A DNA stretch of 64,000 nt from Liolophura sinensis (lineage: Eukaryota; Mollusca; Polyplacophora; Chitonida; Chitonidae): contig NC_088305.1 of assembly GCF_032854445.1 (NCBI RefSeq), positions 5,893,606 through 5,957,605 on the forward strand, read 5' to 3'. Under the pieces are notes generated by a model that saw only the letters and a program-made list of their open reading frames with translations, did not search any database and was not told the DNA's origin. Every line of letters begins with the position of its first letter. Positions within the stretch are counted from its first letter, which is position 1. This document shows, piece after piece, positions 19,601-55,903 of this stretch. The translations under genes and the position numbers were made by a program.

Positions 19601-22600
19601 TAATTTATGTGAGGTCAGCGACAGGTAAGATTATGTTTTTTTGGCCATGCATCAGAAAAAATCTCACCATCGACGAGTATAATAGACACGTGGAAATTTC
19701 GGGGATTGTGATATTAAGTTGTCACTTTAAAACGCAGTTTGACATCATCTGCTGGTAATTTACAAGTCAGGATTCTGTTATAGCTTTGTTCATGAAGACC
19801 TCTGTAGATATTTGACATGCCATTCCTCATGTGTAAAGGTACTGGGTAGTCATGCTCAGTGTCCAGATAGTTTGTTCCCAAATTTACATTTATCATAAAA
19901 TGGTGATCATAAAACTATCAACATTCACCTGCTGTGAAGTCATTATCATTAAAACCGAGGAAAACATGAGCTGTTGGTGGTATAGTAGGAGCATAGACTA
20001 ACTGCTCAGTGAAGCGTGAGCTTGTTTATTACATTACGGAACTATCCATATAATCCCCTGACCACCCCGAATGCTCTCCTGCGGTGCCAAGTCAGTAAGA
20101 ACCACAATCAATGCAATTTATCATGGGATACACTTTCCAAAAGTCTGAGGGCGAAACCTAACATCATTTACATGTACCGCGTCGGGAGTGGTAGATCCAG
20201 GGTCAATCCTGGCTCGAGTCACACCTAAGACCTTAAAAGAGGAAGGGGTACCTTCCTCACTTGGTGTTCAGCATGAAGGGAATAGTGCAACGACTGGTTG
20301 ACCTGTATCAGTATAACGGCTCGGGCGGGGAAGCTTACTTGCTTTTGGTAAGATGTCCCAGTGAAGCAGCCCTAGGTAAAAGAGCGGTGGAAATCCATCC
20401 TGCAAAAAGGAGGCACATTACATGCACTCTAAGGATTCCTTCATTGTCATAAGACTGAAAAATTGTTGAGTATGACATTAAACCCCAAGCACTCACTCCC
20501 TCACTCACTCATTTACAAGTACCATAACCAGACTAGACTATAATTAAGGTCCTTGTTAAAACTTTCAGCCAAGTTCAATCTTTAGACCAGGGCATAACTT
20601 TACGAAACAGCTGCTGTAGACTGTGACCCTGTAGTGTAAGCTCTTCTATCAAATTAGTAGCTTACAGGTGCTCATACCATGTTGTAGGCCTGCCTTATAC
20701 CCAAAGTGTGTTTGCCATGTCTCTTTCTTCTAGCAAATGTGAGTGGCGTTATAGTGAACACAGGGGGCTGGATTCGTGGAGGAGGGTACCATGCCCTTAT
20801 TCACACGGCGGGGGCATTTGAAGGTAAGACAGTACACAGTTCTGTTTTAGGTTTTTACTTGAGAGTCCATACTGAGATATCCAAAAATAAAATAAAATAA
20901 CTCTTCCTTTTTATTTTTTCATTTGTTGATGTTTGTATGATTTACATGTTTTTCCGGGCTTTACGATCGTGACATCTACATGAAAAATTGCTCTAGAGAT
21001 AGTCCACATTTTCCTTAAATTAGATGAATTTCCAGTTTTATTTTTAGCTTATGTCCTACCCCGGGCGTCGGCGTGGGCGTCCAATAACAGGGAAAGAAAT
21101 GTTAAGCAAAATGTTAGGGGTCGTATCTCCAAAAGTATAGCGTGTATTGACCTAAAGTTTTACATGCATATAAAGCACAATGACAAAAGCTGGATGTTGC
21201 ATCGCTGATCCTCTGTTTGCATATTAATTACTGTAATTGGCCACATTCGTAATTTCAGTACTTTATGTATTTAGCTGAAGTCTTGCAGTCTCTTACATGC
21301 GAACTCAAAGCCTTGCTACCAAATCTAAGTTATTTTTATAGCTTAGTCCAACGTTGATGAAAGATTTATCTGTCCTGTAAAACAGCAGTTAAACTTGTTA
21401 AGGCCTGAACTTCATGGTCTGTGTTGTTCCAGTGGATGTGGTAGTTGTACTGGACCAGGAGAGGCTGTACAGCGAGTTGTCCAGGGACATGCCAGACTTT
21501 GTCAAGGTCGTCTTGCTGCCCAAATCAGGAGGGGTGAGTCGCCTCGGGTTTATAGAAGTCATCTGGACACGCCGGTATTCAGTCTGTCGTTTGAATAATA
21601 AAACGCAATGTGTGGTTATATTTATTCAGTTTAGGTTGTTTTTTTGAAAGAAATATTCAAAATTTTTACATTAACTCAATTTGAAAATCTCTAAAGTTTC
21701 ACGAAGCAACCTGTTCGCGTTGTGAGTTATCTCCCAGTTTCAGTATAATGTGACTCGGCGAGATGTCTTCGACTTGGTTCTTCAGGCACCTAATGACTTG
21801 TCGTCATATAACTGAAAAATTGTTTACCTTAATCAACTACCACTGCAACCAGTATTTGGAAACATTTTGAGAAAGCTGTGGAGTGTGGAGAACTTATTTG
21901 CACAGTTTTATGAAGCTTGCACCTTTAAATGACACAAACGAATCATTTTAGCTTTGTTTTTGTAAGAATGTTTGAATTCCACTGAAAAAAGTACTTTAGT
22001 GGTTGAAAAAGTTGAAGATTTACAGTAAGTATAACATAAAACCCCAATCATATATACATACATAATTTAGACAGAACTGGCACATTTGTCTAACATTAGT
22101 GTTGTATATTTCAGGTTGTGGAGAGAGGCTCACAAACACGCACAGAGGCCCGCGAGGGGAAAATTCGAGAGTATTTCTATGGCAACAGGAATACACTGTT
22201 TCCGCATACATTTGAAGTGAAGTGGTCAGAAATCAAGATATACAAAATCGGAGGTGAGCTATATCGAGAGTTGCCTATACACCCTCTGACTAGCTTTTGT
22301 TCCTTTTGTGTGTATATCATCTGATAGATGAAATTGTGGTAATTTTTGTGACCGAAATAGAACTTATTCTTATTGCAAAGTTACTTTCTGTTTGTAGATT
22401 GGTAAATCCTGTCAATCATTCTGGAATATAATTTATTTAACATTTATTTGATTGGTTTTGACTGTGTTACACTGTACTCCAGAATATTTCACTCGTACCA
22501 CAGCATTATGCCGAGAGGAAACCAGGCAGAGCCTAGGGGAAACCCACAACTATCCGCAGGTTGCTGGCAGACCTTCCCATGTACAGCTGGAGAGGAAGCT

Positions 22601-25600
22601 ATCATTGATAGCATTGTGGAATATAATGGAAATGTACCATGGAAACTGCCTTCATTGAGATTACATATCTTAATTGCGTACTTCAATGCTTTGGCTTTGA
22701 ATCATGTGAAGTTTTAAAAGAGGCAGTTGTGTGTGACTTCAGCGTATCTGTGAACTTCTCTGAGATGTTGAAGAAAACCATGTGACATCATGGTGGCTAC
22801 AGGCCACATTGTAAAAATGTTGATGACCTGTAGGTGATAGAGTGAACCTGTCTGATGACTTGTGAGCGCAAACTCCTCCATTTGCGTACACCAAACAGCT
22901 TAATGACTGCCTGTCTTCCACACCTCTCCAGTTTAAGTCGTTGTTGTACCGGCAGAATAAATCTTTTTCCATTGCCAGAGGAGAATATAAAAATAAAACT
23001 TAAATATGGTGTAATTTGTGGGAAATGTGGACTGTTCCAGCAATTCTTTCCAGTTGAAGACATATTTCATGATAAACCAAGTTATCCGGGGAAATACATG
23101 AGTTATATTTTGTGTCACATTTTTCTGTTAGTTTGTAAACTTCTATGAAATGTGTGCCTTTAACAAAGTTTGCCTTTAGCACATGACTGGAACACCCTTG
23201 TCCTTGAAAGCTGATTCCTATTGTTTATTGGTGAGACTGTTATCATGAGCTGCGGTAAATGATGTAAAGTTTTGCCCGTCGGTTTCTGTCGTAAATTTTC
23301 CGGCGAGCTGAGTTTAGCGGCAGGATGACAGAAGTGGCAAATGTCAGTGGCGTTATAGTGATCACAAGAGACTGTTGTAGCTTTTGTAGCACAAAAGGCT
23401 GTTGTAGCTTTGTACATGAAGAGCTCTGCATTTTCACAAGTATTTGGCATGCCACTCCAGATGTGTGTAAAGGTACTGGGTGGTCATGCTCAATCTCCAG
23501 AGAGTTTTCTCCCGAATTTCCCATTCATCATGAAATGGCGATCATAAAAACAATCAAGGTGCACCTGTTATGAAGTAAGCGTATATGTACTAAATTCATT
23601 TTGGTTAAAACTGAGGAAAACATGAACTTTTGGTGAGAAGAGCGTAGACTGACTGCTCAGTGAAGTGTGAGCTTGTTTATTACATTCGGGAACTGTCCAT
23701 ATAACCATGCTCTCCCAGGGCACCCAGTCAGTAATAGCCACAATCAATGCAATAAATCATGGGATACACTTTCCCAATCTATGGGCAAAACTTAACATCA
23801 TTTACGTGTACCGCTTCGGGAGCAGTAGATCCAGGGTCAATCCTGGCTCGAGTCACACCTAAGACCTTAAAAGAGGAAGATGTAACTTCCTCGCTTGGCG
23901 TTCAGCATGAAGGGGATAGTGCAACGACTGGTTAACCCATCATTTACCATACCTTGATTTAGCTTTGAAATTTTCACTCAGTGCAAACCCATTTTATGCA
24001 GTGCTGTGTTGCCCATGTCTACATATATTTACATGTCCCCCAATCCTGTCTGCCCACAGCCCCCGCCCTGCCAGACTCGTGCCTCCCCCTGGGGATGAAG
24101 GCTCAGGATAACAAGACCAAGGTAGTCCCTGTTACTCCAGGTGAGTGGAAATATGGATACCTGACACCATAATCCCACCATGTTACTGGCCGCTGTTGTA
24201 TTAGAGAGTGATTCTTGAGTATGGTGTAAAACACCAATCAAATAAATAAATATGGACACCTGACACCATAATCCCACCATGTTACTGGCTGCTGTTGTAT
24301 GAGTGAGTGATTCTTGAGTATGGTGTAAAACACCAATCAAATAAATAAATATGGACACCTGACACCATAATCCCACCATGTTACTGGCTGCTGTTGTATG
24401 AGTGAGTGATTCTTGAGTATGGTGTAAAACACCAATCAAATAAATAAATATGGACACCTGACACCATAATCCCACCATGTTACTGACCGCTGTTGTATTA
24501 GTGAGTGATTCTTGAGTATGGTGTAAAAGACCAATCAAATAAATAAATATGGACACCTGACACCATAATCCCACCATGTTACTGGCCGCTTTCGTATTAG
24601 TGAGTGATTCTTGAGTATGGTGTAAAATACCAATCAAATAAATAAATATGGACACCTGACACCATAATCCCACCATGTTACTGGCTGCTGTTGTATTAGT
24701 GAGTGATTCTTGAGTATGGTGTAAAACACCAATCAAATAAATAAATATGGACACCTGACACCATAATCCCACCATGTTACTGACCGCTGTTGTATTAGTG
24801 AGTGATTCTTGAGTATGGTGTAAAAGACCAATCAAATAAATAAATATGGACACCTGACACCATAATCCCACCATGTTACTGGCCGCTTTCGTATTAGTGA
24901 GTGATTCTTGAGTATGGTGTAAAATACCAATCAAATAAATAAATATGGACACCTGACACCATAATCCCACCATGTTACTGGCTGCTGTTGTATTAGTGAG
25001 TGATTCTTGAGTATGGTGTAAAACACCAATCAAATAAATAAATATGGACACCTGACACCATAATCCCACCATGTTACTGGCCGCTGTCATATTAGTGAGT
25101 GATTCTTGAGTATGGTGTAAAACACCAATCAAATAAATAAATATGGATACCTGACACCATAATCCCACCATGTTACTGGCCGCTGTCATATTAGTGAGTG
25201 ATTCTTGAGTATGGTGTAAAATACCAATCAAATAAATAAATATGGACACCTGACACCATAATCCCACCATGTTACTGGTCGCTGTTGTATTAGCGAATGA
25301 TTCTTGAGTATGGTGTAAAAGACCAATCAAATAAATAAATATGGACACCTGACACCATAATCCCACCATGTTACTGGCCGCTGTCATATTAGTGAGTGAT
25401 TCTTGAGTATGGTGTAAAACACCAATCAAATAAATAAATATGGACACCTGACACCATAATCCCACCATGTTACTGACCGCTGTTGTATTAGTGAGTGATT
25501 CTTGAGTATGGTGTAAAAGACCAATCAAATAAATAAATATGGACACCTGACACCATAATCCCACCATGTTACTGGCCGCTGTCATATTAGTGAGTGATTC

Positions 25601-27206
25601 TTGAGTATGGTGTAAAAGACCAATCAAATAAATAAATATGGACACCTGACACCATAATCCCACCATGTTACTGGCTGCAGTTGTATTAGTGAGTGATTCT
25701 TGAGTATGGTGTAAAACACCAATCAAATAAATAAATATGGACACCTGACACCATAATCCCACCATGTTACTGGTCGCTGTTGTATTAGCGAATGATTCTT
25801 GAGTATGGTGTAAAAGACCAATCAAATAAATAAATATGGACACCTGACACCATAATCCCACCATGTTACTGACCGCTGTTGTATTAGTGAGTGATTCTTG
25901 AGTATGGTGTAAAATACCAATCAAATAAATAAATATGGACACCTGACACCATAATCCCACCATGTTACTGGCCGCTGTCATATTAGTGAGTGATTCTTGA
26001 GTATGGTGTAAAATACCAATCAAATAAATAAATATGGACACCTGACACCATAATACCGCCACAATACTAGCTGCTGTCATATTAGTGACTGATTCTTGAG
26101 TATGGTGTAAAACACCAGGCAGATAAATAAATAAATCATACTACGTGTACATATAAGGCACATTGTGAGTATGCACGGATATTCTTCGTACTTCATGTAA
26201 GACTCAGTCTGAGTTCATGCATCGTCCTCCTTATTCATTCAGTCAGTCATTCACTAAATCATTCCTCATGGTTTTCCTTTTACAGGCCCCAATCTGCTAC
26301 ACCACATCCTCAGCATCAGTACCGCTACTGCCCCAGAGAGCATTGTGCAGTCTAACGTGTATGGGTTTATTGTTGTGTAAGTATAGCTTTTGTTCTCAGC
26401 TATCTGGGATGTTGTTGAGTTTAGTCTGGTGTAAGTCTGATGTTTGTCTGTTTGTTGTACGGTGGGGTCTACTGTCATAAGTAAGCTGGCAGAGTCCATG
26501 TGACTGGGTCTAAGTTTTAACAGTTTTGTCTGTCCAGCAATGTGTCACTATAATTGGTCAATGGCAATTTTGTTTTCTTACTGTTCAGAAATGGTGTAAA
26601 ACTTTATGCAAAATTGCCCTGATCTCTTTGTCCGTGAAGCCGTAGTGACAATTTACGTGATGATTTGCAGTGCCTTATGTTCATTGTAGACTTAGTAGGC
26701 CGTAAAAACCAATTTTTTCATGAATTTTATGGTAATTTCCTTCACCTATAATCCTGACAATCTCATGTATGAAAAAATGTTACTACATCATAATAATGTG
26801 ATTTGACGAAGTTTTGTGGCCGCTGGTCTTCCGTCTATATGGGATGCAAGATTGTACATGTATGTCACATGTGTAAATATTTATTACTGATTTGCCAAAG
26901 GTCAGTGGTTTTGCACAGGAACGCTGGTATTGCATTTAACAGTAATCAAAGAAATACATAATAATATCATTTGGGAAAAGGTCTGAAGAAGATAGGTGCA
27001 TCTTTTTGTTTTAGATTTCTTTCAAAATGGCAGCCTTGCCCTGAGCAAATCAGTCCACCGTGTATCTTACATCTGATTGGTATTGATATTTCAGAACTGG
27101 AGTTGACATTGAGAGGCAGATTTTCTCTGTGTTGTCCCCCTCCCCACGTCCCCTGCCCAAGGGAATGTTAGTCATGATGGAGCTACAGTTCATGGACATT
27201 AAGTGA
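10671..27206 (+). CDS. CLP1: CLP1, polyribonucleotide 5'-hydroxyl-kinase (13 exons)
   Basis: CLP1 phosphorylates 5'-hydroxyl RNA ends. It belongs to the tRNA-splicing endonuclease complex and to cleavage factor II of pre-mRNA 3'-end formation, in the nucleus. Thirteen exons join in phase to 1,266 nt, giving 421 aa against 425 in human. Visible parts are an N-terminal domain (LRFEVE, then MAEIFG(S)ELT and FTWHGC), a Walker A P-loop GPTDVGKST at residues 118-126, a Walker B-like VDLDVGQ at 145-151, RSADVEEGF, an arginine-rich lid region (about 285-305, with REYFYG), PDSCLPLGM, and the C-terminal ending LQFMDIK. Every motif matches human CLP1 from memory. The start at 10671 gives MSEEKEE; the human protein also begins with a short acidic stretch. 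Introns are crowded with mobile elements, and the stop lies inside a tandem array. No frameshift or missing key residue is seen. Confidence 0.97.
11108..11185 (+). CDS. CLP1: CLP1 exon 2
   Basis: Twenty-six codons run from [18 protein letters not shown] to QLE, equivalent to the human FELERETELRFEVE region. Acceptor ttgaag|tca, donor gag|gtaaac. The acceptor has a weak pyrimidine tract. Confidence 0.9.
11212..11440 (-). mobile_element. Family-1 SINE in CLP1 intron 2, split by a transposon
   Basis: Tail, core and most of the head are present (ttgattgtagttttatg, cctgcaaatgg inverse, gtcattgtgctgtgcgagca). The head stops at 11440. Its missing end, gtaaccacttggccacagag, appears at about 13072-13098, directly after the TIR element of 11443-13070. 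The transposon therefore inserted into this SINE. Confidence 0.75.
11443..13070. mobile_element. Non-autonomous TIR transposon, copy 1 (CLP1 intron 2)
   Basis: About 1.6 kb, related along its length to 18744-20171. Shared words include aattccaaacactgtctc, tacagtcggaactgtcc, ggaacct(c/t)ccattaaac and actaactgctcagtgaag. The left end gtaagtaacctgaagtttcg is a decayed version of the ends of copies 2 and 3, and the right TIR is shortened to gggcgtcatttac. No transposase frame was found. Confidence 0.75.
13827..13940 (+). CDS. CLP1: CLP1 exon 3
   Basis: Thirty-eight codons, [15 protein letters not shown] through [11 protein letters not shown], aligning with human LLTGMAEIFGTELTR and AVFTWHGC. Acceptor cttgag|ctg, donor aag|gtaaat, phase 0 at both ends. 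Confidence 0.97.
14264..14824. mobile_element. TTAA-flanked MITE (piggyBac-like) in CLP1 intron 3
   Basis: TTAA at 14264-14267 and 14821-14824 flanks a 553-bp body. The body starts agggacata and ends tatgtccct, perfect inverse ends of 9 bp. Beyond that the inversion is imperfect. TTAA duplication with short TIRs and no coding capacity is typical of piggyBac-derived MITEs. Confidence 0.85.
14979..15104 (+). CDS. CLP1: CLP1 exon 4
   Basis: Forty-two codons, [20 protein letters not shown] to EIGRGPR. Acceptor tttttcag|ctg, donor agg|gtaaca. It ends just before the P-loop exon, as in the conserved order [17 protein letters not shown]. Confidence 0.97.
16048..16286 (+). mobile_element. Family-1 SINE in CLP1 intron 4, near full length
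   Basis: Head ggggcctccatggcgtagca, body cagctcatgctggcttcctc, and tail with aaataaata. It ends about 25 bp before the exon 5 acceptor, so the SINE tail lies next to the splice site. Confidence 0.85.
16309..16422 (+). CDS. CLP1: CLP1 exon 5, Walker A and Walker B
   Basis: Thirty-eight codons from [20 protein letters not shown] to [10 protein letters not shown]. The P-loop lysine is residue 124 and the Walker B-like aspartates are 146 and 148. Acceptor tttgctag|gta, donor cag|gtgggt. Confidence 0.98.
16540..16680 (+). mobile_element. 5'-truncated family-1 SINE in CLP1 intron 5
   Basis: It begins at the cagcaacctgcagatgg segment and ends in agataaataaa. Only the 3' half is present and the ends have decayed. 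Confidence 0.75.
17162..17189 (+). CDS. CLP1: CLP1 exon 6, 28-bp microexon
   Basis: It encodes GQVSIPGTI plus the first base of a glycine codon, matching human GSVSIPGTMG. Acceptor ttttcag|ggc, donor attg|gtacac. It is needed to keep phase between exons 5 and 7. Confidence 0.93.
17337..17600 (+). mobile_element. Family-2 tRNA-derived SINE-like repeat (CLP1 intron 6)
   Basis: The segment carries a B-box-like ggggatcaatccctg, then ggttacaccaaagactttg, ggcactataaaaaggttaga, and gactggttggcccagtgtcc. The same order recurs near 30715 and 51721. This is a second repeat family with a tRNA-like head. Ends are not sharp. Confidence 0.65.
17887..18057 (+). CDS. CLP1: CLP1 exon 7
   Basis: It continues the split glycine, then [26 protein letters not shown] and CEQNKK; human has ALYIERPADVEEGF and APLVYHFG. 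Acceptor gctgcag|gtg, donor aaag|gtaaga. Confidence 0.97.
18126..18220 (+). mobile_element. 5'-truncated family-1 SINE tail in CLP1 intron 7
   Basis: Only the tail half is present: tttcctcccaccacattgct, gctgttgtattagtgaaata, caatcaaataaataaa. It lies about 70 bp after the exon 7 donor. Confidence 0.8.
18744..20171. mobile_element. Non-autonomous TIR transposon, copy 2 (CLP1 intron 7)
   Basis: The left end gtaaatgaagtaaagtttcg and the right end cgaaacctaacatcatttac are inverse over about 20 bp with few mismatches. The interior matches copies 1 and 3. A poly-C run sits near 18818-18836. Family-2 SINE sequence follows directly. No transposase frame is present. Confidence 0.82.
20172..20512 (+). 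mobile_element. Family-2 SINE-like repeat (CLP1 intron 7)
   Basis: It contains gatccagggtcaatcctggc (B-box-like) and cacctaagaccttaaaagag, and ends ttgttgagtatgacattaaa followed by cactcactc repeats. An inverted copy is at 31205-31535, with the same order and most words. Confidence 0.75.
20734..20823 (+). CDS. CLP1: CLP1 exon 8
   Basis: It encodes [20 protein letters not shown] through AGAFE; human has ASVSGCVINTCGW and AASAFE. Acceptor ttcttctag|caa, donor gaag|gtaaga. The first 29 bases reappear in intron 10 (see findings). Confidence 0.97.
21433..21533 (+). CDS. CLP1: CLP1 exon 9
   Basis: It encodes [19 protein letters not shown] and VLLPKSGG, nearly identical to human [16 protein letters not shown] and VLLPKSGG. 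Acceptor ttgttccag|tgg, donor ggg|gtgagt. Confidence 0.98.
22115..22253 (+). CDS. CLP1: CLP1 exon 10
   Basis: It encodes [20 protein letters not shown] then [11 protein letters not shown] and IKIYKIG. Human has VVERSKDFRRE, REYFYG and VKIYKVG. Basic residues here correspond to the lid region over the nucleotide. Acceptor tatttcag|gtt, donor ggag|gtgagc. Confidence 0.97.
22433..22616 (-). mobile_element. 5'-truncated family-1 SINE in CLP1 intron 10
   Basis: The tail and core are present and the tRNA-like head is missing. It is flanked by the 11-bp direct repeat tggaatataat at 22422-22432 and 22617-22627, so truncation happened on insertion. Confidence 0.88.
23254..23806. mobile_element. Non-autonomous TIR transposon, copy 3 (CLP1 intron 10)
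   Basis: A 553-bp copy with the best-preserved ends: ggtaaatgatgtaaagtttt at left and gcaaaacttaacatcattta at right are inverse over about 23 bp with one or two mismatches. Its interior matches copy 2 (aaaggtactgggt(a/g)gtcatg, atgctctcc) with a large internal deletion. It contains a 29-bp segment matching CLP1 exon 8 at 23338-23366. Confidence 0.85.
23807..23940 (+). mobile_element. Truncated family-2 SINE-like repeat (CLP1 intron 10)
   Basis: It matches 20172-20290 closely (gatccagggtcaatcctggc, cgttcagcatgaagggg) and stops after caacgactggtta. It abuts the TIR element just as in copy 2. Confidence 0.75.
24060..24140 (+). CDS. CLP1: CLP1 exon 11
   Basis: It encodes [13 protein letters not shown] and KVVPVTPG; human has [11 protein letters not shown] and KLVPVTPG. 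Acceptor gcccacag|ccc, donor ccag|gtgagt. Confidence 0.97.
24150..26122. repeat. 99-bp tandem array, about 20 units, in CLP1 intron 11
   Basis: Units of 99 bp start tatggacacctgacaccata. They continue into a family-1 SINE tail (ggccgctgttgtattagtga, attcttgagtatggtgtaaa, caccaatcaaataaataaa). The array begins about 10 bp after the exon 11 donor. Variants form a three-unit, 297-bp higher-order pattern repeated near 24480 and 24777. Since 99 is a multiple of three, one minus-strand frame stays open for 683 codons; it is a by-product, not a gene. Confidence 0.96.
26286..26376 (+). CDS. CLP1: CLP1 exon 12
   Basis: It encodes [11 protein letters not shown] then [14 protein letters not shown], aligning with human MVHHLLSVS and SVAGFIVV. 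Acceptor ttttacag|gcc, donor gttgt|gtaagt, splitting a valine codon. Confidence 0.95.
27095..27206 (+). CDS. CLP1: CLP1 exon 13 (stop codon)
   Basis: It encodes [20 protein letters not shown] then [16 protein letters not shown] and TGA; human ends RPLPKNFLLIMDIRFMDLK. Acceptor atatttcag|aac. The last 24 bases are the start of the first unit of the 73-bp array. Confidence 0.97.
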
Positions 27207-28140
27207 ACTCTACCAGAGCTAGGGTATAGTTCAAGAGTGATTTACATGTGTGGAACTACCATTCATAGAAATCAAGTAAACTGTACCAAAGATACAGTTC
27301 GGAGGAGGTTATATGTACATATATCGAACTACAGTTCATGAACATCAAAAGTTAACTGTACCAGAACTAAAATACAGTTCAAGAGTGGGTTACATGTATG
27401 AAGCTACAATGCATAGACATCAAGTAAACTGTACCAAAGATACAGTTCAGAGGAGGTTATATGTATATATGTCGAACTACAGTTCATGAACATCAAAAGT
27501 CAACTGTACCAGAGCTAAAATACAGTTCAAGAGTGGGTTACATGTATGAAACTACAGTTTGTGAACATCAAGTAAACTGTACCAGAACTGAGATATGGTT
27601 CAGGAGAGGTTACCTGTACATGTATGAAGGCACAGTAATGAACGTCAAGTGAACAGTACCAGAACTAAAATGCAGTTCAGGAGTGGGGCTTACATGTACC
27701 AGTATCTGTATGAAGCCACTGCTCATGGACTTCAAGGGAGCTGTACCAAAATTAAGATACAGTTCAGGAGAGGTTTATGTGTACATAAATGACATTACAT
27801 GGTACCAGTTACCTTACAGAGCTAAGATACAGTTTTGGTGAGGTTTACATTCATGGGGCTACAGTTCCTAGTCATGACCTGAACCATTCCAGAACTAAGA
27901 TACAGTTCAGGTGAGGTTTACACGCATGGGGCTACAGTTCATGGTCATCAACTGAACCGTACCAGAACTAAGATACAGTTCAGGTGAGGTTTACACCCAT
28001 GGGGCTACAGTTCCTAGTCATGACCTGAACCATTCCAGAACTAAGATACAGTTCAGGTGAGGTTTACACGCATGGGGCTACAGTTCCTAGTCATGACCTG
28101 AACCATTCCAGAACTAATATACAGTTCAGGTAAGGTTTGC
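27180..28140. repeat. 73-bp tandem array overlapping the CLP1 stop codon
   Basis: About 13 units of 73-75 bp, two of them longer and one shortened. The shared words are ctacagttcatggacatcaa, gaactgtaccagaactaaga and tacagttcagg(a/t)gaggttt. The word ctac starts at 27183, 27256, 27329, 27404, 27477 and so on. The first unit is coding: it holds the LQFMDIK codons and the TGA. The rest lie in the 3' UTR or just beyond. Confidence 0.94.
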
Positions 28141-30235
28141 GTGTACATGAATGGTCACTTTTCCATGGAATTCTCCTGGAGTGGAACATTTGTACTCAGT
28201 TTCTGGGTGCTTTTAACATGCGACAGGTGACAAAAAATGCAAAAAAGAGGAGAAGTGAGGCAACAATATTCCACACTGTTATAATACAAATTCTTGTGGA
28301 GACTGGTTCATGGAAGAGTAGGGGAATTGGTGCTAGCCTGTTTCTTACTACGACATGCAAGGTGCAGAGACAATCCTGACCTTGGACAGGAAGTTTGTGG
28401 ATTCCCTCGCTCTGATTGGCCTTGGTGCCTGGATGACAGGAAATGATTGATGACGTTGAGGTGACAGGTTGTGCAGCCTCACATTCATTGAAAATTACTT
28501 GTCTACCACCAACGTGGCATTGAGCCACCATCAAATAAATAAACAAGATACTTCTAAATATATGATTAGAATTTTGCAGCGTACTCTCAGTGGACAGTGC
28601 ACAATACTGGTGTTATTTTTGTAAGGATTTGTACTTTTGTCTTGGATTTTTGTGCAAGGTGAAATGTAAGTGTGATTTGCGCATTGCAGTGCAAATGCGA
28701 ATATTTTAAGATTCACAAGATTCGTATGACTGAAATGGGTATTGTTTTAGACTTAAGAATGGATCTTATGAATGCAAATGAAGTGGTGAAGTAGGTAGTT
28801 AGGAGGAAGGAAAGGAGCTAAACATTTTACGAATCAAAATTCCACAAAATTTTAGGAAAACAAAGTTGGTTTTTTGAAACGCACTGAGAAAGGGATTTGA
28901 ACCGTGCAGGCTTGAATTGCACTCCAGATGTTAAAAGATATGGATGGCCTATAAAAACTGACAGTCATTCCACCATTGGTTAAACAGATACAGAATCTTT
29001 TCTGATTGCTTCGTGTTAGAGACAGGTAAGTCCAGGTTATCTCTAGTGTACGCTGAAGTTTAGGTACACCGACCAGTTTGACAGATTTATTCAAGCATGA
29101 CCAAAGTTAGAGGGTTTAACCCAGGAATGCGTATCTGCAATGTCAGCCAATCAGCGTTGATTCAGTATCCCTTTACTATAAGGTTCTTCATTGTAGATGT
29201 ACTTTCACTTGTATTCATATCCACTTGACAAAAGTAAGTGGCATAAATTTTAAATAAATTTCACTTGTTTTACTTGAGGCATTAATTGTTATTTGTTTTG
29301 TTATGTGTGTGTTTGTTCAACTAATAAAACATAGGAACGTCTGACAGCAGACTGCAGGTGATCATAGGTTTTCCCTGGGCTCATATATGCTGGCCCCCTC
29401 TCTGGCTATACTTGGGAAGATCTGACAGCAGCATGCTGACCGCAGTCGTATTAGAGAAATATACTCTTGTGAAAAAAGAAACCCATAGCTGTCGCGTGGG
29501 AAAGTCCGTCAGTAACTTGACAAAGTTTTCCGGTTTACAATTTTCACAATTTTTTCCACCCATTTCATTCATATTTTTGGTTTTATTTATCTTGTTAATT
29601 ATGTTCCGAAGGAATGATGTGGTCACGATGTCCGTCCTGAATATGATTTCATATTTAATGTGTATAGGTTCATTTTGAAGTGAACTAGGTCCTTATTTAA
29701 ACTGATGCTGTTTTGATCAAATTTTTGGTTTCCACTGCAAGGGCCTGAATAGCCTGTTTCACGGACGTGAATGAAATAGAAATTGTAAGATATTCATAGT
29801 TTCTCGAGGTGATAAATAACATGGAGCTAAATGGGCGAAATGCTAATTTTTGCCGATTGCTAAAATTTAGAGCTCTAGAGGACGTTGGAACTATCATATC
29901 AGAAAGCTATACATGTACATCTTGATTACTATTTCAGAAAGAGTTTCTGACCAAAAAGCTAGATTTTTCGTTTCTTATACTAAAATTTTCGTCTGTGCCT
30001 GTCTGAGGAGGGTTAAATTCGCTTTGTTTTTATCTCCAGTACTCTGTTCACGTGATCAAAGAACGTGCTGATGATTGGCTCGGAGCAGCTATGACATCAC
30101 TACAAAACTGTGAATTACACAGGGATTCAAAATTTAGCGGGCGGGTTCACGTGGTTATAAAATACGTTCAATTTATACTAGGACGAGCATTCAGAATTCT
30201 AGTTTCTAAAGCAACGGACTGAAAATAACAAGTTC

Positions 30236-33175: not shown

Positions 33176-33802
33176 GTAGGTTATGTATTTGTTTGATATC
33201 TACAAGTATTCTGTGATGGGGAAAATTCCTCCCTTTGCATGAAGACTGATAGTAAAGCAGTTTCCATTCATATGCATGTACTCTTATAAATACTTTTTAT
33301 TGCATATATGCAATGTATAGACAGTTTGTAGACTTCTGTCATTAAGGGCTACGCATATCGGCATGTGTCTGGCTTTGCGTTAAGCTGTAAATTTGCACAC
33401 TCTCTACTCGACGTTGTAATAAGCAAGCATATTTACAGGGAGTCTTTCTACATTTGCATTTAGTCCTCACCAGCAATTCTATAACATTAATTAAAAATAG
33501 TTTAAGAGCATGTTATTTCCAAATGCGTTAGCTTTCCCTGATCACTTATTTTCATTTGAACTGAGACGGATGCACAAAACTGCCGGAAAACAAAAAAAAA
33601 AAAAATGGACATAAACTTCAATGGACATAAACTTCAAAGAGTCTCTAAACCTGATGTTTCACCGGAAGTTAGATTCTTGCTATGTATTTGTAACATCAGC
33701 ATCACTGCTCTATCAGATTCTAGACTTCCTTTATACAGACACATACAGCATTAAGACAAATAATAAAACAATGTCCCTTTTTCTTCGTTTTCTTTCAGAA
33801 CC

Positions 33803-39218
<5,416 letters not shown>

Positions 39219-42200: not shown

Positions 42201-43509
42201 TACATTTCAACGTCCATCTGATGGGCATCATTTTAAAGCATGCCTTATAACCGTGCGAACTGAAGAGAATTATTTATTTATTTATTTATTTGATTGGTGT
42301 TTTACGCCGTACTCAAGAATATTTCACTTATACGACAGCGGCAAGCATTATGATGGGAGGAAACCGGGCAGAGCCCGGGGGAAACCCACGACCATCCGCA
42401 GGTCGCCGAAGAGAATTACAAATAATAAGGAATAAATCTGCTGAATATGATATCTGCTGTACATTTTTTATTATTTCAACTTTCTTCGTCTTCAAACTAA
42501 ATTAAAACACCACTTTCCTTATAACTCCACATATATACCGAAATAAAATTAATTCTGGCAACTATTTCTATACATATATGAGTAACAAACTGCTCCCGCA
42601 CACTTACAATCCTGTCAGAATACAGGGTGAAATATTTTTGCATTGGGCCGATTTGTGTTCGGGCATTATGCCGAAAACTTTCTGGAATGCAAAAGCTAGC
42701 AGGGAAACAAAATGTGTTGCGATCTGTGCTCTATACATGTCCTTTACCTCAGAAAATCAGCATCATCGGAGGCAAAAAATTAGAAATGAGACAGCACAAT
42801 GCTTTGTTACACCATGAAGGTCGAATGGAATAAAGCAAAACCTCCATGGTTACAGTACGGCAAAAGGACCCCTTGTAACTACATAGGAAATTGTCCCACT
42901 TCGGTGCAGCAGTGAGATGTAATTTTCTGCATGTAAACAAACAAGTAAAACTTACTAGAATATAAAGTACAGTTACTCAAGAACCTGTATGTGGAAAACT
43001 TGAGTGATGCGATCTATACTTTTTGTTTCATCAAAAGGTAAAAGTAGATTTTGCTATTTTAAGACATTTTCCTGAGGGAATTCCCTTCATATAAAAATAT
43101 GATTATGTGAACCAAAATCTTTTCCACATATTTGGTATTAGTGAAGCATTAGTAAGCCTTAACGAAGTATCGCGTTGGTTCAAGCAATCATATGTTTATA
43201 CATTGAAAAAATGAAACAGTTTGGAAGTTCAAAGAAACTCTACATTCGCCATAATATTTCGTGGTATGTAACGCATTGACCGCATTGGTCCAGTGGTAAC
43301 AGGCTTGCCTTGAAACCGGTGTGTGGATTACGATAATTGCAATTGCTGTAAGTTGCATATGTGTAAGGTTTGATATTGAGGTGAATTGAAGTATTATTTG
43401 AAAAATTAGAGCCATTTCAAACTTTTTCTGTCGTCGGACTCCAATAAATAATGAAATAAAAACTCAACCAAACCAATAATTGTTCACTCACTGTAGGTAC
43501 GGTAAACGG
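39219..43509. other. Spacer between the two dehydratase copies
   Basis: No gene supported. AATAAA words at about 39826, 39982, 40485 and 40606 could end copy A transcripts, with 40606 followed by a long gene-free stretch. One truncated SINE is at 42273. Poly-T near 41405-41428 is the only other simple feature. Confidence 0.6.
42273..42407 (-). mobile_element. 5'-truncated family-1 SINE with target-site duplication
   Basis: The tail and core are intact up to gaccatccgcaggtcgcc, then stop. The 11-bp repeat gaagagaatta lies at 42262-42272 and 42408-42418. The core is close to 31548, so it is a fairly young copy. Confidence 0.92.
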
Positions 43510-45774: not shown

Positions 45775-48700
45775 GTAAGTTCTCCTGGTTTGAAATTTTA
45801 AATGAACTTTACCGACTTGTAATGCACAATCGTTCGATTGATACATATAGGTGCATACAATTAATGGAATTTTAACATTACAATAAATGGTAAGGGAAAG
45901 AGTTAGATAAAGTAATGTTGTGTTTTGAGGCGTTATTTGGGCAGAAAATGAAGAACATTTCTGAATCTGAGCGCCTCCAGATTCACGCGAATATGCTCAC
46001 AGATATCGATACGTGAAGTTCATCAGAACAATACTGTTATACTTGTGATCTTGGTCTCTTCTTTACTCAACTCACAACAAACGCTGCGTTTACTAAACTG
46101 GAATTGTTCAGCATGCACATGATATACTGTATATTCGACAAGTTACGTGTGTGTGTTATACGGCTAGCAGCTGTATATTCATCGTGTTGAACTAGATCGC
46201 CACGTTGGAAATATGAACGGTTCTATCAAAGCGTAACTGAGATGCATATTTTGTTCTTGACAACTGATATTCTGGTATGGTGCACAGTTTGAATACTGAT
46301 TTTACTCAGTCGCCTTGCGCCTTTCTAACATCAATAAAACCTCTTGATTACTTCTTTTTGCATGATTCCGTCCTATTTTCGTACTTTATATACTTTCTTA
46401 GTTTTTTGGTGGTTTGTGTTAAACCTGGTTTGCTGGTTTGTGGTTTATTGCGTTGGGGATTGACCTTGCGATTATTGATCTGGAACATCCTTACTGGTTG
46501 ACGGCTGGTAAGCGAATGTCTATTTCGATGCATTGATTTACATAAGTCTTATGTAACTTACACAGTCTTCGGACTGTGTAAGTCTGGTCTCCACCAGTTA
46601 ACGGTGAACACCGGACTGAGAACTCTGTGGAGTGCCAGGTGGGGTGAACAGATCCAATGCAAAGTTCTTATATTTGTATATGCATTCACATTGAATCCTA
46701 TTCCAATCAGATGTGGTCTTTGTGATTGTTTACGTGAATCATTGAGTAACCTACACTTATTGCTTTTCAAAAATGTCAAAGATGAGAAATGTCCTTAAAA
46801 TGCGTTAGCGACGAATCCATAGAGAACATAGCTTAAAATTTCATTGTGTTAGGAAGAGTTATTTTATATATGAAAAACATATACAGCTGAGGCCCGAATG
46901 TTGAAGACTTTTGTCTTTTATTCACTAGAACACACTTCCGGGGACAGAGTCCAATACCCATAGTATATGTGGATCTCCGCGTTCTCATTGTTCACAGGGC
47001 ATTGATGATGACATGGTGAGGTGGAAAAATCGTTGGTAGCATACCAATAGTTCATATATAGCTTCCTCGGCCCCTAAAACTCACCGCCTTTGTATAACTG
47101 AAAACTTCCTTCCTTATCATAGTAGTGGTGGCGATACTAGTTCGTGGTTTTCTCCACCACTAAAATTGGCCATCATCGTGTAATTAAGCAACAATCAAAT
47201 AATTAAATAAATAAACAAATCAGACAAAGCTACAGAAGTATTCAAGACACTGTCATTCTTGTTTTTCAGAGAGCGAGCAGTTTTCCGGCTCCTTCAAAGT
47301 TCGGGGCGCTTACAACAAGCTGTGTGTTCTGTTAGAGAGTGACTCAGAGCTAAAGAGCAAAGGGGCAGTGGCAGCGTCGTCGGGCAACCACGCTCTAGGA
47401 TGTGTGAGCCTTTATTTCTGTCTCCTTGTCCCTTTTAAAAATCGGTACCCTGACAGACCAAGTTTTCGAGTCTAACAATTAACAAAGTTGTCATCTGTTT
47501 TAGTCTTAGTTCTTAGTTCAAGCCCACTTTCTATTTCACCAATAAGTAAAAAAAAATTATTAATTAAAAGTACAAATAAATAATCAAATGTACATCTCTG
47601 TTTGACCACAGACGATAGCGATGAAGAGGTTAGGAATCCCTATCCAGGTGTTTACACCAGAGAACGTCAGTCTGGCCAAGAAGAAGATGTTAGAAGCTTA
47701 CGATGCTAATCTGGTTCTTCATGGGTTAGACGTGGTGGACACAGAGCACGAGGCCCGCAGGCTCTCTGAGGTAAAATCTAATTTTCCATCTGATTTGCAA
47801 ACCTCACCCAACATCCGTGAAGCTAATGTTGTTTTGGTGGGCGAATCGTACTACAAATGTTAGCGACGCAGAATTCAGAGCATATTTTCCACAGATGTGT
47901 AGTAGAATTTATGTGGGAAATTATATGCGAAATACCACAAGAGATGGTAGGGTACAAAATCTTTTTCTGATACACTTATATAAAAAGGAAAAACACAAAA
48001 CATAGTTTATAACTGGATGTCTCCATGTTTTTCATCAGGAGAAGGGAATTCCCTTCATCTCACCATACAATGACGTCGATGTTGTGGCCGGACTGGGGAC
48101 AATTGGGTGAGTTGTCTACATTCGGCTTCATATGTATATGTACTTCACGTGATTATGTGGTCACATCGACTTTGAATAAAGGTTTTCATATTTTGACATC
48201 GTTTATTCGACCTTCAACGCCATGAATTGAAAAAAGCCAAAAAGATTTTATGTAATTGCTGTGAAACCTTTTGATAATGACAGGTATTTAATCTTTTACG
48301 AATGATCATCTCAAATTGTACATTGCAGGATCTATTCTCACCTTGTATAGACTATAAGTTTAGTACATAAAGTTGTAGCTTACCTTTGTGGAAAAAGAGA
48401 ATGCATTGTAAACAAAATTATTTTGACAAAACGTTATTTCTAAACAAAAAATAAACAATAATTTTCATATTTGTGGTTGACAGAATGGAGATTTACGAGG
48501 ATTTGTCAGAGGTTGACGCCGTCTTGGTATCTGTAGGTGGAGGAGGTTTAATCAGTGGAATAGCCTCATACCTGAAGGCCATAAACCCAAATATAAAGGT
48601 AAACATTAAGCGTCAGTTCCCGGGTTTATCCTTAATCAGCCGACTGTTATCATTGGTGTAACCACGCCTTGTTTAAGCACTAGAATTGTTATTAGCCTAT

Positions 48701-50708
48701 AAACTGTCGTTTTGGGGGATGTGAGTTTAATCTGGCGTTGGGTCAAGCATTCAAAAGTCGGCATGGAATCGAGTGGTTAAGATACTAAGACAGAAGAGTT
48801 TCGAGTTCAATCCCTGTCGTGGATAGGGAATTTTTGAATCACCCCGCTCTCCTTGTTCGTGGGAAAGTTCGTAAGTAACTTGTCAAAAGAGGTTGGTTTA
48901 TGCAGAGCACTGGTTTCCTGCACCAACAGTAGCCTATACAAATGAAAATTTCTTGAGTTTGAATAACAATGAAATACTTGCTCAGAAGTACTGACTAGAC
49001 CAAGTATATTCCTTCGTGGTGTCAATATGCATTTGTTTTATGACTCTATGGAGCCTCATTGATACCTGGTGTCTTCGCCATGATTATTCAGTGAGGCAGC
49101 ACTTCTCTGTATCGTCTGTGTTCCGGCCTCTATATTTCTCGTGACAAGACTAAAACAATTATTGTTGAATAAAACAAACCACTTCATGCATTGTTTTCTC
49201 AAGGTGTTTGGCTGTCAACCAGAGCTGACAAAGGTCATGTATGAAAGTGTGAGGGCCGGGAAGATCGTGTTTGAGGAGTCAGGGGACACTTTGTCTGACG
49301 GCACCAAGGGAGGCATAGAAGACGATTCAGTAAGCATCATATACACGCACAATAAGCTACAATAGATTAGTCTCACAACAGAGATACACAGAACATACAC
49401 ATTAGTCCAGCATCTTGCACGATTTGGGTGCTGATTTCATTGGTCTAGAATATTCCTTGCGTCTCTCCATCACCATTGAAAACTTTAATTTTAAACGTTA
49501 GATATACTCTCCTAGTTCTTTGGTTTGAGTAAAATGTGGTTTCAGAAATTGGCCTTGCGATTATTGAGCCAGAACGTCCAATATTGGTTGACGACTGGCA
49601 AACGAGTGTCTGTTTCGACGCATAGACCAATAATTAGTAGAATTTTTTTTTGTTCATGTAAAGCAGATTAAATTGTATCATTTTTGTACGCATGTGTTGG
49701 TTTACAACCACGAATATTTACCAGCTAATTGGGGCCTTATGAACCAGGAATATTTACCAGCTAATTGGGGCTTTATGAACCACGAATATTTACCAGCTAA
49801 TTGGGGCCTTATGAACCACGAATATTTACCAGCTAATTGGGGCCTTATGAACCACGAATATTTACCAGCTAATTGGGGCCTTATGAACCACGAATATTTA
49901 CCAGCTAATTGGGGCTTTATGAACCACGAATATTTAGCAGCTAATTGGGGCTTTATGAACCACGAATATTTAGCAGCTAATTGGGGCCTTATGAACCACG
50001 AATATTTAGCAGCTAATTGGTGCCTTATGAACCACGAATATTTGCCGGCTTATTGAAGCCTTATGAACCACAAATATTTTAATATTCAGGTGACCTTTGA
50101 ACTGTGCCGTAAACACGTAGACGATTGGTTGTTGGTTACTGAAGAACAGATTGCAGAAGCCGTTTATTTCATGCTGGACAAACATCACAAGGTAAGTACT
50201 GTTTTTCTATATTGTGACAGTTTATTATAGAATATAATAATGTATAATATTTTACTGATACAGATGTTGAAACTTCTCATTATGATATTTGTATGAACTT
50301 CTGTTAACAATTATCCCATATAGATATACTGTGTAATTTTCAAACTACAACTCACCCAAACTCAGAATGTTAGTACGGCTCCGTTTTAAACAAAAACGGA
50401 GGTATATTATGCATTTCCACAAGTGACTTTCTCCGGAAAAACGTAAAACTTTACCCAGATTAAGAAGAATCAGATTTGAAGGAAAGCTGCTGTGAAACTA
50501 AATCCTCCCACGACTTACGCCCCTTTGTTTTCTCTTGCAGGTGGTAGAGGGCGCTGCAGGAGCGGCCGTAGCGGCGTACACAAACAACCTAGCAGTGTTC
50601 TCCCGATTCTCTAACGTTGCCATAGTTATATGTGGCGCCAACATGACGAGTGACCACCTTCACAAGATCATGCTCAAATATGGCTGTAAAAAGAATCCCT
50701 CGGAATGA
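45636..50708 (+). CDS. PLP-dependent threonine/serine dehydratase-like enzyme, copy B (8 coding exons)
   Basis: Paralogue of copy A with the same eight coding exons, phases and exon lengths, also 336 aa. I count about 16 amino-acid differences, of which four fall in the last eight residues. All active-site features are kept: Lys56 in SGSFKVRGA, Ser84 in SSGNH, GGGGL, Gln210, and Cys312 in CGAN. It should therefore catalyse the same type of PLP-dependent reaction on a serine- or threonine-like substrate. No stop or frameshift is seen, and splice sites are intact, so it is probably functional. The promoter with TATA box and non-coding exon is duplicated too, so expression may overlap with copy A. 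Confidence 0.93.
46190..46560. repeat. Intron-6-like block inserted in dehydratase B intron 1
   Basis: The words ttgcgattattga, actggttgacggctggtaag and tatttcgatgcat match intron 6 of copy B (49540-49625: ttgcgattattga, ttggttgacgactggcaaac, gtttcgacgcat). The start (tctatcaaagcgtaactgag) resembles intron 6 of copy A near 38125. It is absent from intron 1 of copy A. Confidence 0.65.
47270..47403 (+). CDS. Dehydratase B coding exon 2 (PLP lysine)
   Basis: It encodes the same SGSFKVRGA and SSGNHALGC motifs. Two residues differ from copy A (Ser68 to Leu, Pro72 to Ser). Acceptor tttttcag|aga, donor tgt|gtgagc. Confidence 0.97.
47612..47770 (+). CDS. Dehydratase B coding exon 3
   Basis: Same protein sequence as copy A, with a single silent change in 159 bases by eye. 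Acceptor accacag|acg, donor gag|gtaaaa. Confidence 0.97.
48039..48106 (+). CDS. Dehydratase B coding exon 4
   Basis: Same protein sequence as copy A with two silent changes. Acceptor tttcatcag|gag, donor attgg|gtgagt. Confidence 0.97.
48484..48598 (+). CDS. Dehydratase B coding exon 5 (tetraglycine loop)
   Basis: [14 protein letters not shown] is conserved. Ile-to-Val and two Val-to-Ile changes separate it from copy A. Acceptor gttgacag|aat, donor aag|gtaaac. Confidence 0.97.
49204..49329 (+). CDS. Dehydratase B coding exon 6
   Basis: [20 protein letters not shown] to EDDS, one residue different from copy A (Lys to Arg). Acceptor ttctcaag|gtg, donor tca|gtaagc. Confidence 0.97.
49704..50080. 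repeat. 36-bp minisatellite in dehydratase B intron 6
   Basis: About ten units reading accacgaatatttaccagct then aattggggccttatga. Because 36 is a multiple of three, a + frame repeats [12 protein letters not shown]; it stops at 50054-50056 before exon 7 and is not coding. The last degenerate unit runs into the exon 7 acceptor (ttttaatattcag). Copy A lacks it. Confidence 0.95.
50090..50191 (+). CDS. Dehydratase B coding exon 7
   Basis: Same as copy A except Ser to Ala in EEQIAEA. Acceptor aatattcag|gtg directly after the minisatellite, donor aag|gtaagt. Confidence 0.96.
50541..50708 (+). CDS. Dehydratase B coding exon 8 (stop)
   Basis: [16 protein letters not shown] to [11 protein letters not shown] and TGA. 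Up to LKYG only Leu300 to Val differs from copy A; the tail and everything after it are unrelated. Acceptor tctcttgcag|gtg. Confidence 0.97.
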   Translation: MVEGAAGAAVAAYTNNLAVFSRFSNVAIVICGANMTSDHLHKIMLKYGCKKNPSE

Positions 50709-52110: not shown

Positions 52111-52237
52111 CACTCATACATACATACTTCTTCATATCGAGTGGCATCTTCTGATTCAAATTCGCTGTTCAGCTAATTAAATCAAACTTGTCAGGATTTC
52201 TACCTGCATATTGGTTATATCCAGGAACCAAATCAAA

Positions 52238-52504
52238 TTCATTTATTTATTTGATTGGTGTTTTACGCCGTACTCAAGAATATTTCACTTATACAAAGGA
52301 GGCCAGCATTGTGGTGGGAGGAACCGGGGAAGAGCCAGGCAACAACCCACGACCATCCGCAGGTTGCTGGTAGAACTTCTCACTTACGGCTGGAGAGGAA
52401 GCCAGCAATAGCTGGGCTTGAACTCACAGCGACCGCATTAGTAAGAAGGCCCTGGGTCATTACGCTGCGCTAGCGTTCTAACGAACTGAGCCACGGAGGC
52501 CACT
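52238..52504 (-). mobile_element. Full-length family-1 SINE with target-site duplication
   Basis: Tail tttatttgattggtgtttta at left and head end actgagccacggaggccact at right. The 10-bp repeat ccaaatcaaa flanks it at 52228-52237 and 52505-52514. Confidence 0.93.
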
Positions 52505-54633: not shown

Positions 54634-54835
54634 TTAAAATCCGCAACTAGAGCACAATTCCTTGAAGTCGATCATTCCGTCACCGCTGTTGTCTGCCGCC
54701 GTGATCATCTCGTTGATGTCGGATAGCGTTGCCTGGCAACCACCGGCTTCCAGAGCCTGTCGAAATTCCTCGGCATTGATTTTACCGCTGCCGTCTTGAT
54801 CTATTTGCTTGAAAATTCTTCGAAGGTTGCTTTCA
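54634..54835 (-). CDS. EF-hand gene, terminal exon
   Basis: Acceptor tgttttccag on the minus strand, then ESNLRRIFKQIDQDGSGKIN to CSSCGF and TAA at 54634-54636. It completes a codon left by aa at the end of the upstream exon (Asn). Confidence 0.9.
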
Positions 54836-55603
54836 CTGGAAAACAAATTAAGACATACAGATTAAAAGTACTTCACGTACCTTTCAGTGTTTACATAATT
54901 TTATGTCGTAACGTTATCCTATTGGGTCACATCGGCAGTTTTCATTCCTGATACCTTCATCCACTTTGTGCTTTTCCTTTGCTGTATCATTTACCAAGTG
55001 TACCAGCAATGACTTTTCGGAGTTTTCATAAAACGCACACCACTGAGATTAAGACGGTAGAATAAGTGAATTCAGCTTTTTTTTAAACAATACTTAGTTT
55101 GTAACCATACAACGCCAACCAAGGGACCAATACCTGTCTTCAAAAACTAAATAGAGGTTTACACTTTTGTGCTTTTCTGCATTACGTCACTGCAGTGGCC
55201 GCGCAGTGAACCAGGAGCCTCTCACCAGTGCCTTCGCTCTGAGGTCAAATACCTTCGTATAAGTGAAATATTTTTTCGTAAAACACCAATAATTATCTAC
55301 TATCAAATAAATATTTAAATAAATAAATACGTCAGTGTTTCTGAATAGTCGTGCTCGTAAAGCAAAGAGACACCGTAACAGCAGAAAATGGCGTGTTATT
55401 ACACAGCTTGGACCTGATTGGTTTGGTTGAAAATGTTTTCTTTTGAAATTCGACCATTTATATATTTCTGTTTTCAAAGGCTGTATAGCATGTGTTCTTT
55501 ATACTCACTTGAGCTCGGTCCGGGGTTTCTGATTGATCAGCTCTAGAAGTTCTTCTTGGTTGATCAACCGCGTGTTGTCCTTGTCAGCATCAAGGAATTT
55601 GTC
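54634..55603 (-). CDS. EF-hand calcium-binding protein (calmodulin/troponin C-like), last two exons
   Basis: Two exons on the minus strand join in phase and encode about 99 residues with three EF-hand regions. The upstream exon has LDADKDNTRLINQEELLELI. As a 12-residue loop (DKDNTRLINQEE) it has Thr at position 5 and Arg where Gly is expected at 6, so this hand is degenerate. The last exon has two canonical loops, DQDGSGKINAEE and DNSGDGMIDFKE, then the end CSSCGF. These loops bind Ca2+ through Asp, Asn, Ser and the final Glu. Length and spacing suggest a small calmodulin-like sensor. The start of the gene was not found with confidence; 61102-61186 is a candidate. The exact subfamily is not recognised. 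Confidence 0.85.
55185..55330 (+). mobile_element. Internally deleted family-1 SINE in the EF-hand intron
   Basis: It keeps part of the head (ccaggagcctctcaccagtg) and the tail (ataagtgaaatatttttt, aaaacaccaat), but most of the body is gone. Its 3' flank aaatacgtcagtgtttctga resembles that of the SINE at 53380. Confidence 0.7.
55509..55603 (-). CDS. EF-hand gene, penultimate exon
   Basis: Acceptor ccaccatcag and donor ctcaa|gtgagt on the minus strand. It encodes DKFLDADKDNTRLINQEELL then ELINQKPRTEL. The open frame has no start codon, so earlier exons are needed. Confidence 0.85.
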
Positions 55604-55760
55604 CTGATGGTGGAAAAATCACATACCATTAGTCTAGAAATAAAACAGTTCATCTGGCTGTACTTGAGTCGTCTTACAGAGAAGACTTCAAGTCTTTTTA
55701 TCAAAGTATGCCTCTCTTTATGAGGTTTGTATCGGCTCAATTTCTCCACACACCCATATA

Positions 55761-55903
55761 TTTATTTATTTGATTGGCGTTTTACGCCGTACACAAGAAT
55801 ATTTCATTTATACGACAGCGGCCAGCATTATGGCGGGAGGAAACCGGACAGAGCCCGGGGGAAATCCACGACCATCCGCAGGTTGCTGACAAACCTTCCC
55901 ACT
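55761..55903 (-). mobile_element. 5'-truncated family-1 SINE with target-site duplication
   Basis: Tail and core up to gttgctgacaaaccttccc, head missing. The 11-bp repeat acacccatata is at 55750-55760 and 55904-55914. Confidence 0.93.

Follow-up and report, generated by a model that had tools for sequence, protein, structure and literature searches.

The CLP1 locus and the array at its 3' end

The stretch of DNA analyzed here, referred to as the window, is a 64,000-nucleotide piece of the Liolophura sinensis genome (assembly GCF_032854445.1, contig NC_088305.1, forward-strand positions 5,893,606-5,957,605), and all coordinates below are positions within it. Its plus strand carries the CLP1 gene, and the last coding exon of that gene runs straight into a head-to-tail tandem array of 13 units of about 73 bp, the first of which contains the end of the CLP1 reading frame. 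For the gene itself, 12 coding blocks lying between 11108 and 27203 were chosen from the open reading frames, and CLP1 may have a further first exon beyond these; the number 13 that the note gives to the last exon is therefore provisional. Two of the 12 blocks, 22115-22255 and the last one, were tested against databases; the other ten are putative CLP1 blocks, assigned by their likeness to the human protein.

The last coding exon, from its first full codon to the TGA (27096-27206, plus strand), matches the Pfam family Clp1 (PF06807) with an E value of 1.7e-06 and a score of 28.9 bits, the cut-off being 27.9. All 36 of its residues form an ungapped alignment with the human CLP1 chain 8hmy_E, through the last residue of that chain, and both comparisons identify the exon before the array as encoding the CLP1 C-terminus. 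Among the alignments shown, those to the C. elegans and yeast chains are weaker and end before the last residue. The human tail reads DIRFMDLK in the same register as the tail found here, which bears out the statement, in an earlier reading made from the letters alone (the sequence-only reading), that the human protein ends in FMDLK.

A different tandem array lies further upstream in the gene (24149-26133) and consists of about 20 copies of a 99-bp unit with 95% matches, filling most of a CLP1 intron; the splice donor GT begins at 24141, 8 bases before the first base of this array. By eye, the 99-bp unit resembles a scattered repeat of the window, and it may have originated from a mobile element.

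The array at the gene end extends from 27180 (27173 as judged by blastn) to 28145, or about 0.97 kb. Its units, which measure 72-86 bases each, were cut by eye at a GAG, GAA, GGG or similar triplet before CTACAG and then aligned. Tandem Repeats Finder reported periods of 73 and 148 at 27183-27698, a period of 75 at 27253-27511 and a period of 73 at 27817-28138, and the self-match of the sequence is 0.534 at lag 73 and 0.425 at lag 148, as against 0.229-0.306 at nine other lags of 70-79. The array that the sequence-only reading had described, with a 73-bp unit and about twelve units after the first, is thus present.

Unit 1 (U1, 27180-27252) begins GAG CTA CAG TTC ATG GAC ATT AAG TGA, which is the end of the last CLP1 exon: 27180-27206 hold the final eight codons together with the stop, and 46 bases follow. 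Because blastn homology to the unit begins at 27173, between 27 and 34 bases of the 73-base founder are coding, with the remainder lying after the stop. The units that follow on the plus strand keep relics of the same peptide end to differing degrees. U2 (27253-27325) reads ELPFIEIK and a stop, U3 (27326-27398) reads ELQFMNIKS and a stop, U4 (27399-27473) reads KLQCIDIK and a stop, and U6 (27547-27624) reads KLQFVNIK and a stop, while U5 (27474-27546) reads ELQFMNIKS but has lost the old stop and runs on to a next stop after 14 residues. The two relics quoted in the sequence-only reading, ctaccattcatagaaatcaa and ctacaatgcatagacatcaa, lie in U2 and U4, respectively. In U7 and U8 (together 27625-27782) the frame is broken past three residues in the former and the old stop is gone in the latter, and the 5' half of U9 (27783-27855) is barely recognizable, this unit having 59% identity to the consensus of all units. 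U10-U13 (27856-28147) are 73-bp units that are more alike, with U10 and U12 100% identical, and blastn homology stops at 28145. In the earlier part of the array, an alternation of closely related units, U3 with U5 (97% identity) and U2 with U4 (89% identity), generates the 148-bp period.

We considered whether the odd 5' half of U9 is a copy of the 3' flank of the array and rejected this, as 407 of 1963 random windows were equally good; a longer alignment of this half with the 3' flank, including the end of U8, had an uncontrolled score of 34.

Homology between the array and the gene end

The consensus of U2-U13, built with U1 left out, agrees with the gene end at 26 of the 27 bases from GAG to TGA, with a single, synonymous mismatch; its translation is ELQFMDIK followed by a stop. 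When close relatives were collapsed into one, also without U1, the consensus gave the identical reading from the L to the stop. Consensuses of sub-groups diverge: U2-U8 yield KLQFMNIK and a stop, and U10-U13 yield GLQFLVMT and a stop. The proposal that the first unit contains the CLP1 gene end therefore stands, and looking for a first unit that fails to extend into the exon did not refute it.

The likeness is well above what chance provides in the window. A search with the 27-base gene-end pattern at up to three mismatches found two matches, both in the array, against a mean of 0.00 for 100 shuffles. When the open eight-codon windows of the two strands, 81,113 in all, were scored against the human tail, the gene end ranked first, with U5 and U3 tied for second, and the score of the U2-U13 consensus, 29, was reached by no window outside the array. 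Among the 4,428 such windows with a stop codon next, U2 and U6 rank 2 and 3, U4 ranks 9 and U11 ranks 11.

Extent of the array in the genome

The whole assembly was searched, comprising 609 Mb in 632 contigs, and all counts from it are lower bounds. The whole array as a query found at least one place, the array itself, and a doubled consensus with E values allowed up to 1 found at least seven pieces, each at the CLP1 locus. A 26-base pattern with up to three mismatches occurred in at least seven places, four of them in the array, while the three outside it all have the maximum of three mismatches; the same pattern read backward, as a control, gave one. Because the genome matches fall here, apart from those three pattern hits, the array is a single-locus minisatellite and no satellite family, as far as these searches reach. 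Of the "73-bp satellite" in the sequence-only reading, the tandem array is retained and the class is replaced by minisatellite, given the single locus and the length of about 0.97 kb.

Within the rest of the window the doubled consensus had no match below an E value of 1. No copies were found in plasmids at an E value of 1e-5, nor was the exact gene-end pattern found in contigs of prokaryote genomes, results which are uninformative with regard to related animals.

Position in the transcript and possible function

The first canonical polyadenylation (poly(A)) signals past the CLP1 stop are two overlapping AATAAA motifs at 28534 and 28538 (28534-28543, plus strand), with no AATAAA or ATTAAA between the stop and 28534. 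Since these signals sit beyond the array, their positions suggest that the array probably belongs to the CLP1 3' untranslated region (UTR), where it would make up about 71% of the stretch from the stop to the first AATAAA if the signal at 28534 is used. Variant hexamers occur within the array, including an AGTAAA at the relic stops of U2, U4 and U6 (27275, 27423 and 27571, respectively).

That the array is retained for an effect on CLP1 output, whether through RNA structure, through alternative poly(A) sites at these AGTAAA motifs or as a reserve of C-termini, is an explanation that we weighed and find improbable. The large share of the putative 3' UTR taken up by the array and the AGTAAA motifs would suit it, as would a stem, AACUGUA/UACAGUU, that appears in five of the 13 predicted folds (U2, U3, U4, U5 and, in extended form, U8). 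It would also be suited by the predicted outcome of exchange with U1, in which seven of the 12 later units (U2, U4, U6 and U10-U13) would supply an eight-residue tail with a stop at the old place; U3 would supply nine residues, and U5, U7, U8 and U9 would supply 14, 3, 42 and 18, respectively. A change of the CLP1 C-terminus by unit exchange is accordingly possible on paper and would often be mild, though no instance of it was observed.

Against retention stands the folding of the units themselves. When the 13 units were folded singly, U8 alone exceeded its shuffles in stability (z = -2.85, with 1 of 200 shuffles as good), and the z values of the other 12 lie between -1.68 and 0.62. RNA structure as the reason for the repeat was therefore rejected, with U8 a sole outlier that carries little weight over 13 tests. 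The old stop has also been lost in four of the 12 relics (U5, U7, U8 and U9) and falls one codon late in U3, and the stops that are kept are explained by the shared descent of the units. The array is most likely neutral and probably a non-functional example of the birth of a tandem repeat.

The sequence-only reading had hinted at a tie between the array and the role of CLP1 in mRNA 3'-end formation, and this found no support. In its most developed form, such a tie would make the array a local reserve of CLP1 tails: exchange would swap the last eight residues and mostly keep the stop, the TAA-bearing relics (AAGTAAA) would act as weak poly(A) signals, and copy number would tune the site at which the mRNA of this 3'-end-processing factor is cleaved. 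We regard this as very improbable.

Direction of copying

Because human CLP1 ends in DIRFMDLK in the same register, the gene end appears to be old and the array derived from it, unless the tail converged. The human chain thus upholds the order of events that the sequence-only reading had proposed, with the gene end ancestral and the repeat derived.

The opposite direction would require that a minisatellite or mobile repeat already present beside CLP1 overwrote the last codons of the gene by deletion or gene conversion, leaving a tail that is itself derived from the array. Tandem arrays are able to convert neighboring sequence, and the failure of U1 to find a place in the tree of units, described below, speaks for such a history. 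On the other side, the tail has kept both its F-M-D-x-K residues and its length in common with human CLP1, and elsewhere in the genome there are just the three weak pattern matches. We hold an array-derived tail to be very unlikely. As for chance similarity or an assembly artefact, tandem copy number is prone to mis-assembly and U10 equals U12, but the gene-end match exceeds chance in both the shuffles and the eight-codon windows and most units differ from one another in a way that assembly error would not produce, so that we give this explanation practically no credence.

Differences between U1 and the other units were then counted in the two parts of the unit. Relative to the consensus of the others, U1 has one difference in the 27 coding positions and 9 in the 45 positions past the stop (Fisher one-sided p = 0.051), a borderline contrast of the kind that purifying selection on the coding part would produce. 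Pooled, the 12 other units differ at 69 of 318 positions in the first region and at 75 of 533 in the second. At the same 27 positions, the 1 of 27 in U1 compares with 30 of 161 in six units (U2, U3, U6, U7, U8 and U11; p = 0.038), which we chose as being less related, and as the units share kinship, these figures are rough. Comparison of 11 relics, U9 left out, with U1 by codon position gave differences at 17 of 98, 21 of 99 and 29 of 99 positions.

Birth of the array

Two short direct repeats bound the array. The left one, CATGATGG (27173-27180, plus strand), marks the left edge of unit homology as found by blastn, and the right one, CATGAATGG (28146-28154, plus strand), lies just past the end of homology; their likeness, which includes one gap, was matched by only 1 of 20,000 random pairs. 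The homology of U13 ends 2 bases short of a unit, and ahead of U1 there are 7 bases of unit tail, both being very short stretches.

We are highly confident in an overall account in which a segment of the CLP1 gene end was duplicated in tandem and expanded, with its copies decaying thereafter. The founder would have been a 73-bp segment made of roughly the final eight codons, the stop and the 46 bases that follow. Its duplication would most likely have proceeded via replication slippage or else via unequal exchange, in either case between two short direct repeats: CATGATGG, located in the exon, and a CATGAATGG then situated about 73 bases downstream. Additional exchange would have brought the array to 13 units. 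This growth probably took place in at least two phases because the 148-bp alternation stands against the more uniform block of 73-bp units; the older part would be the one with the two-unit period (U2/U4 and U3/U5), and U10-U13 the younger. U1 would still terminate the protein, and the remaining units would be decaying as probably neutral 3'-UTR sequence.

Several observations weigh against this account. The unit tree leaves U1 unplaced (support 0.000), and the contrast within U1 is borderline at p = 0.051. The surplus of third-position differences among the relics traces, by inspection, to one base of U1, the T of ATT, which differs from all 11, and because this one base accounts for the surplus, the surplus does not point to selection acting on the relics. 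The pair of bounding repeats was picked by eye before its likeness was put to the random-pair test, and the right copy, CATGAATGG, is also what the unit would read if it simply ran on. Taken singly, the relics provide weak protein evidence: apart from U1, U3 and U5, their scores against the human tail are attained or exceeded by windows outside the array. The 40 bases upstream of 27180 are, as a whole, not clearly homologous to the unit tails in 11 comparisons (U9 left out), since random windows did as well in 66 of 1961 cases for the bases before U2 and in at least 283 of about 1960 for each of the other ten. Lastly, the account is based on one assembly, from a single species.

Other features in the window

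Further along the window, the open frames at 36031-36297 and 47606-47860 share an identical run of 57 residues, and similar frames are paired at 33767/45510 and 37872/49084. These paired frames look like a tandem gene duplication, and we presume the duplicated gene to be similar to serine racemase or threonine dehydratase. At 49706-50079 a 36-bp unit is repeated about ten times with 95% matches, and the open frames there measure 140 codons on the plus strand and 115 on the minus strand; a pure (TA)45 run followed directly by (AG)26 lies at 36629-36769. A dispersed repeat, which we take to be of a kind typical of mollusc genomes, is readable in two frames and is present in many copies on both strands, including those at 42251-42502, 52155-52370 and 55668-55886. 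A minus-strand open frame at 54637-54861 contains a stretch (FKQIDQDGSGKINAEEF...) that we assume to be EF-hand-like.

Comparison with known systems

Minisatellites consist of head-to-tail units of tens of bases, while satellite DNA forms long, high-copy arrays that usually occupy multiple loci. With 13 units of 72-86 bases over about 0.97 kb, the CLP1 array has the size of a minisatellite, for which a passage of PMC2820488 gives a length of about 0.5 kb to several kb. It also has the restriction to one or a few loci, the array and the doubled consensus having matched this locus alone (as lower-bound counts), and it is neither long nor high-copy nor multi-locus in the manner of satellite DNA.

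Two models for the birth of minisatellites are cited in PMC3389668, and the same two are named in PMC2820488. In the model of Haber and Louis (1998), the starting point is a region between direct repeats of 5-10 bp, whereas in that of Taylor and Breden (2000) the terminal repeat unit is incomplete. As far as the former is described there, the CLP1 array fits it, with CATGATGG at 27173-27180 and CATGAATGG at 28146-28154 as the flanking repeats, allowing for the one gap and for the choice of the pair by eye. Going by these descriptions, the array resembles minisatellites born by slippage or exchange in its single locus, its unit of tens of bases and its short direct repeats, 8-9 bp here. It differs from them in that a conserved stop codon lies within its founder, the identity of which can thus be read from the protein.

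The CEL gene has a coding variable number tandem repeat (VNTR) near the C-terminus of its protein. The CLP1 array is like it in that coding sequence near the end of a gene was copied and unlike it in that the founder here carried the stop, and for this reason the CLP1 protein did not grow. Another likeness is to VNTRs in 3' UTRs, such as that of SLC6A3 as it appears in PMC8096271, in that the CLP1 array is a tandem repeat that probably lies in a 3' UTR; unlike those, its first unit is partly coding, and it is known from one assembly only. According to the main text of PMC8096271, in which the words "stop codon" do not occur, there are human VNTRs that overlap 3' UTRs and coding exons. A narrow search of the open-license literature, by title or the start of the abstract, found no published array with a unit that spans a stop codon, and we do not claim this kind to be unreported; nor does the array open a new class of system.

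Tandem arrays usually hold no copy fixed, which makes their founder hard to identify. Here, selection on the protein fixes one copy, the gene end, which makes it possible to infer what the ancestral unit was and in which direction copying went, and provides a reference for the decay of the other units. The array further suggests that many duplications of a conserved stop codon can be harmless, since each of the copies comes to lie after the first stop.

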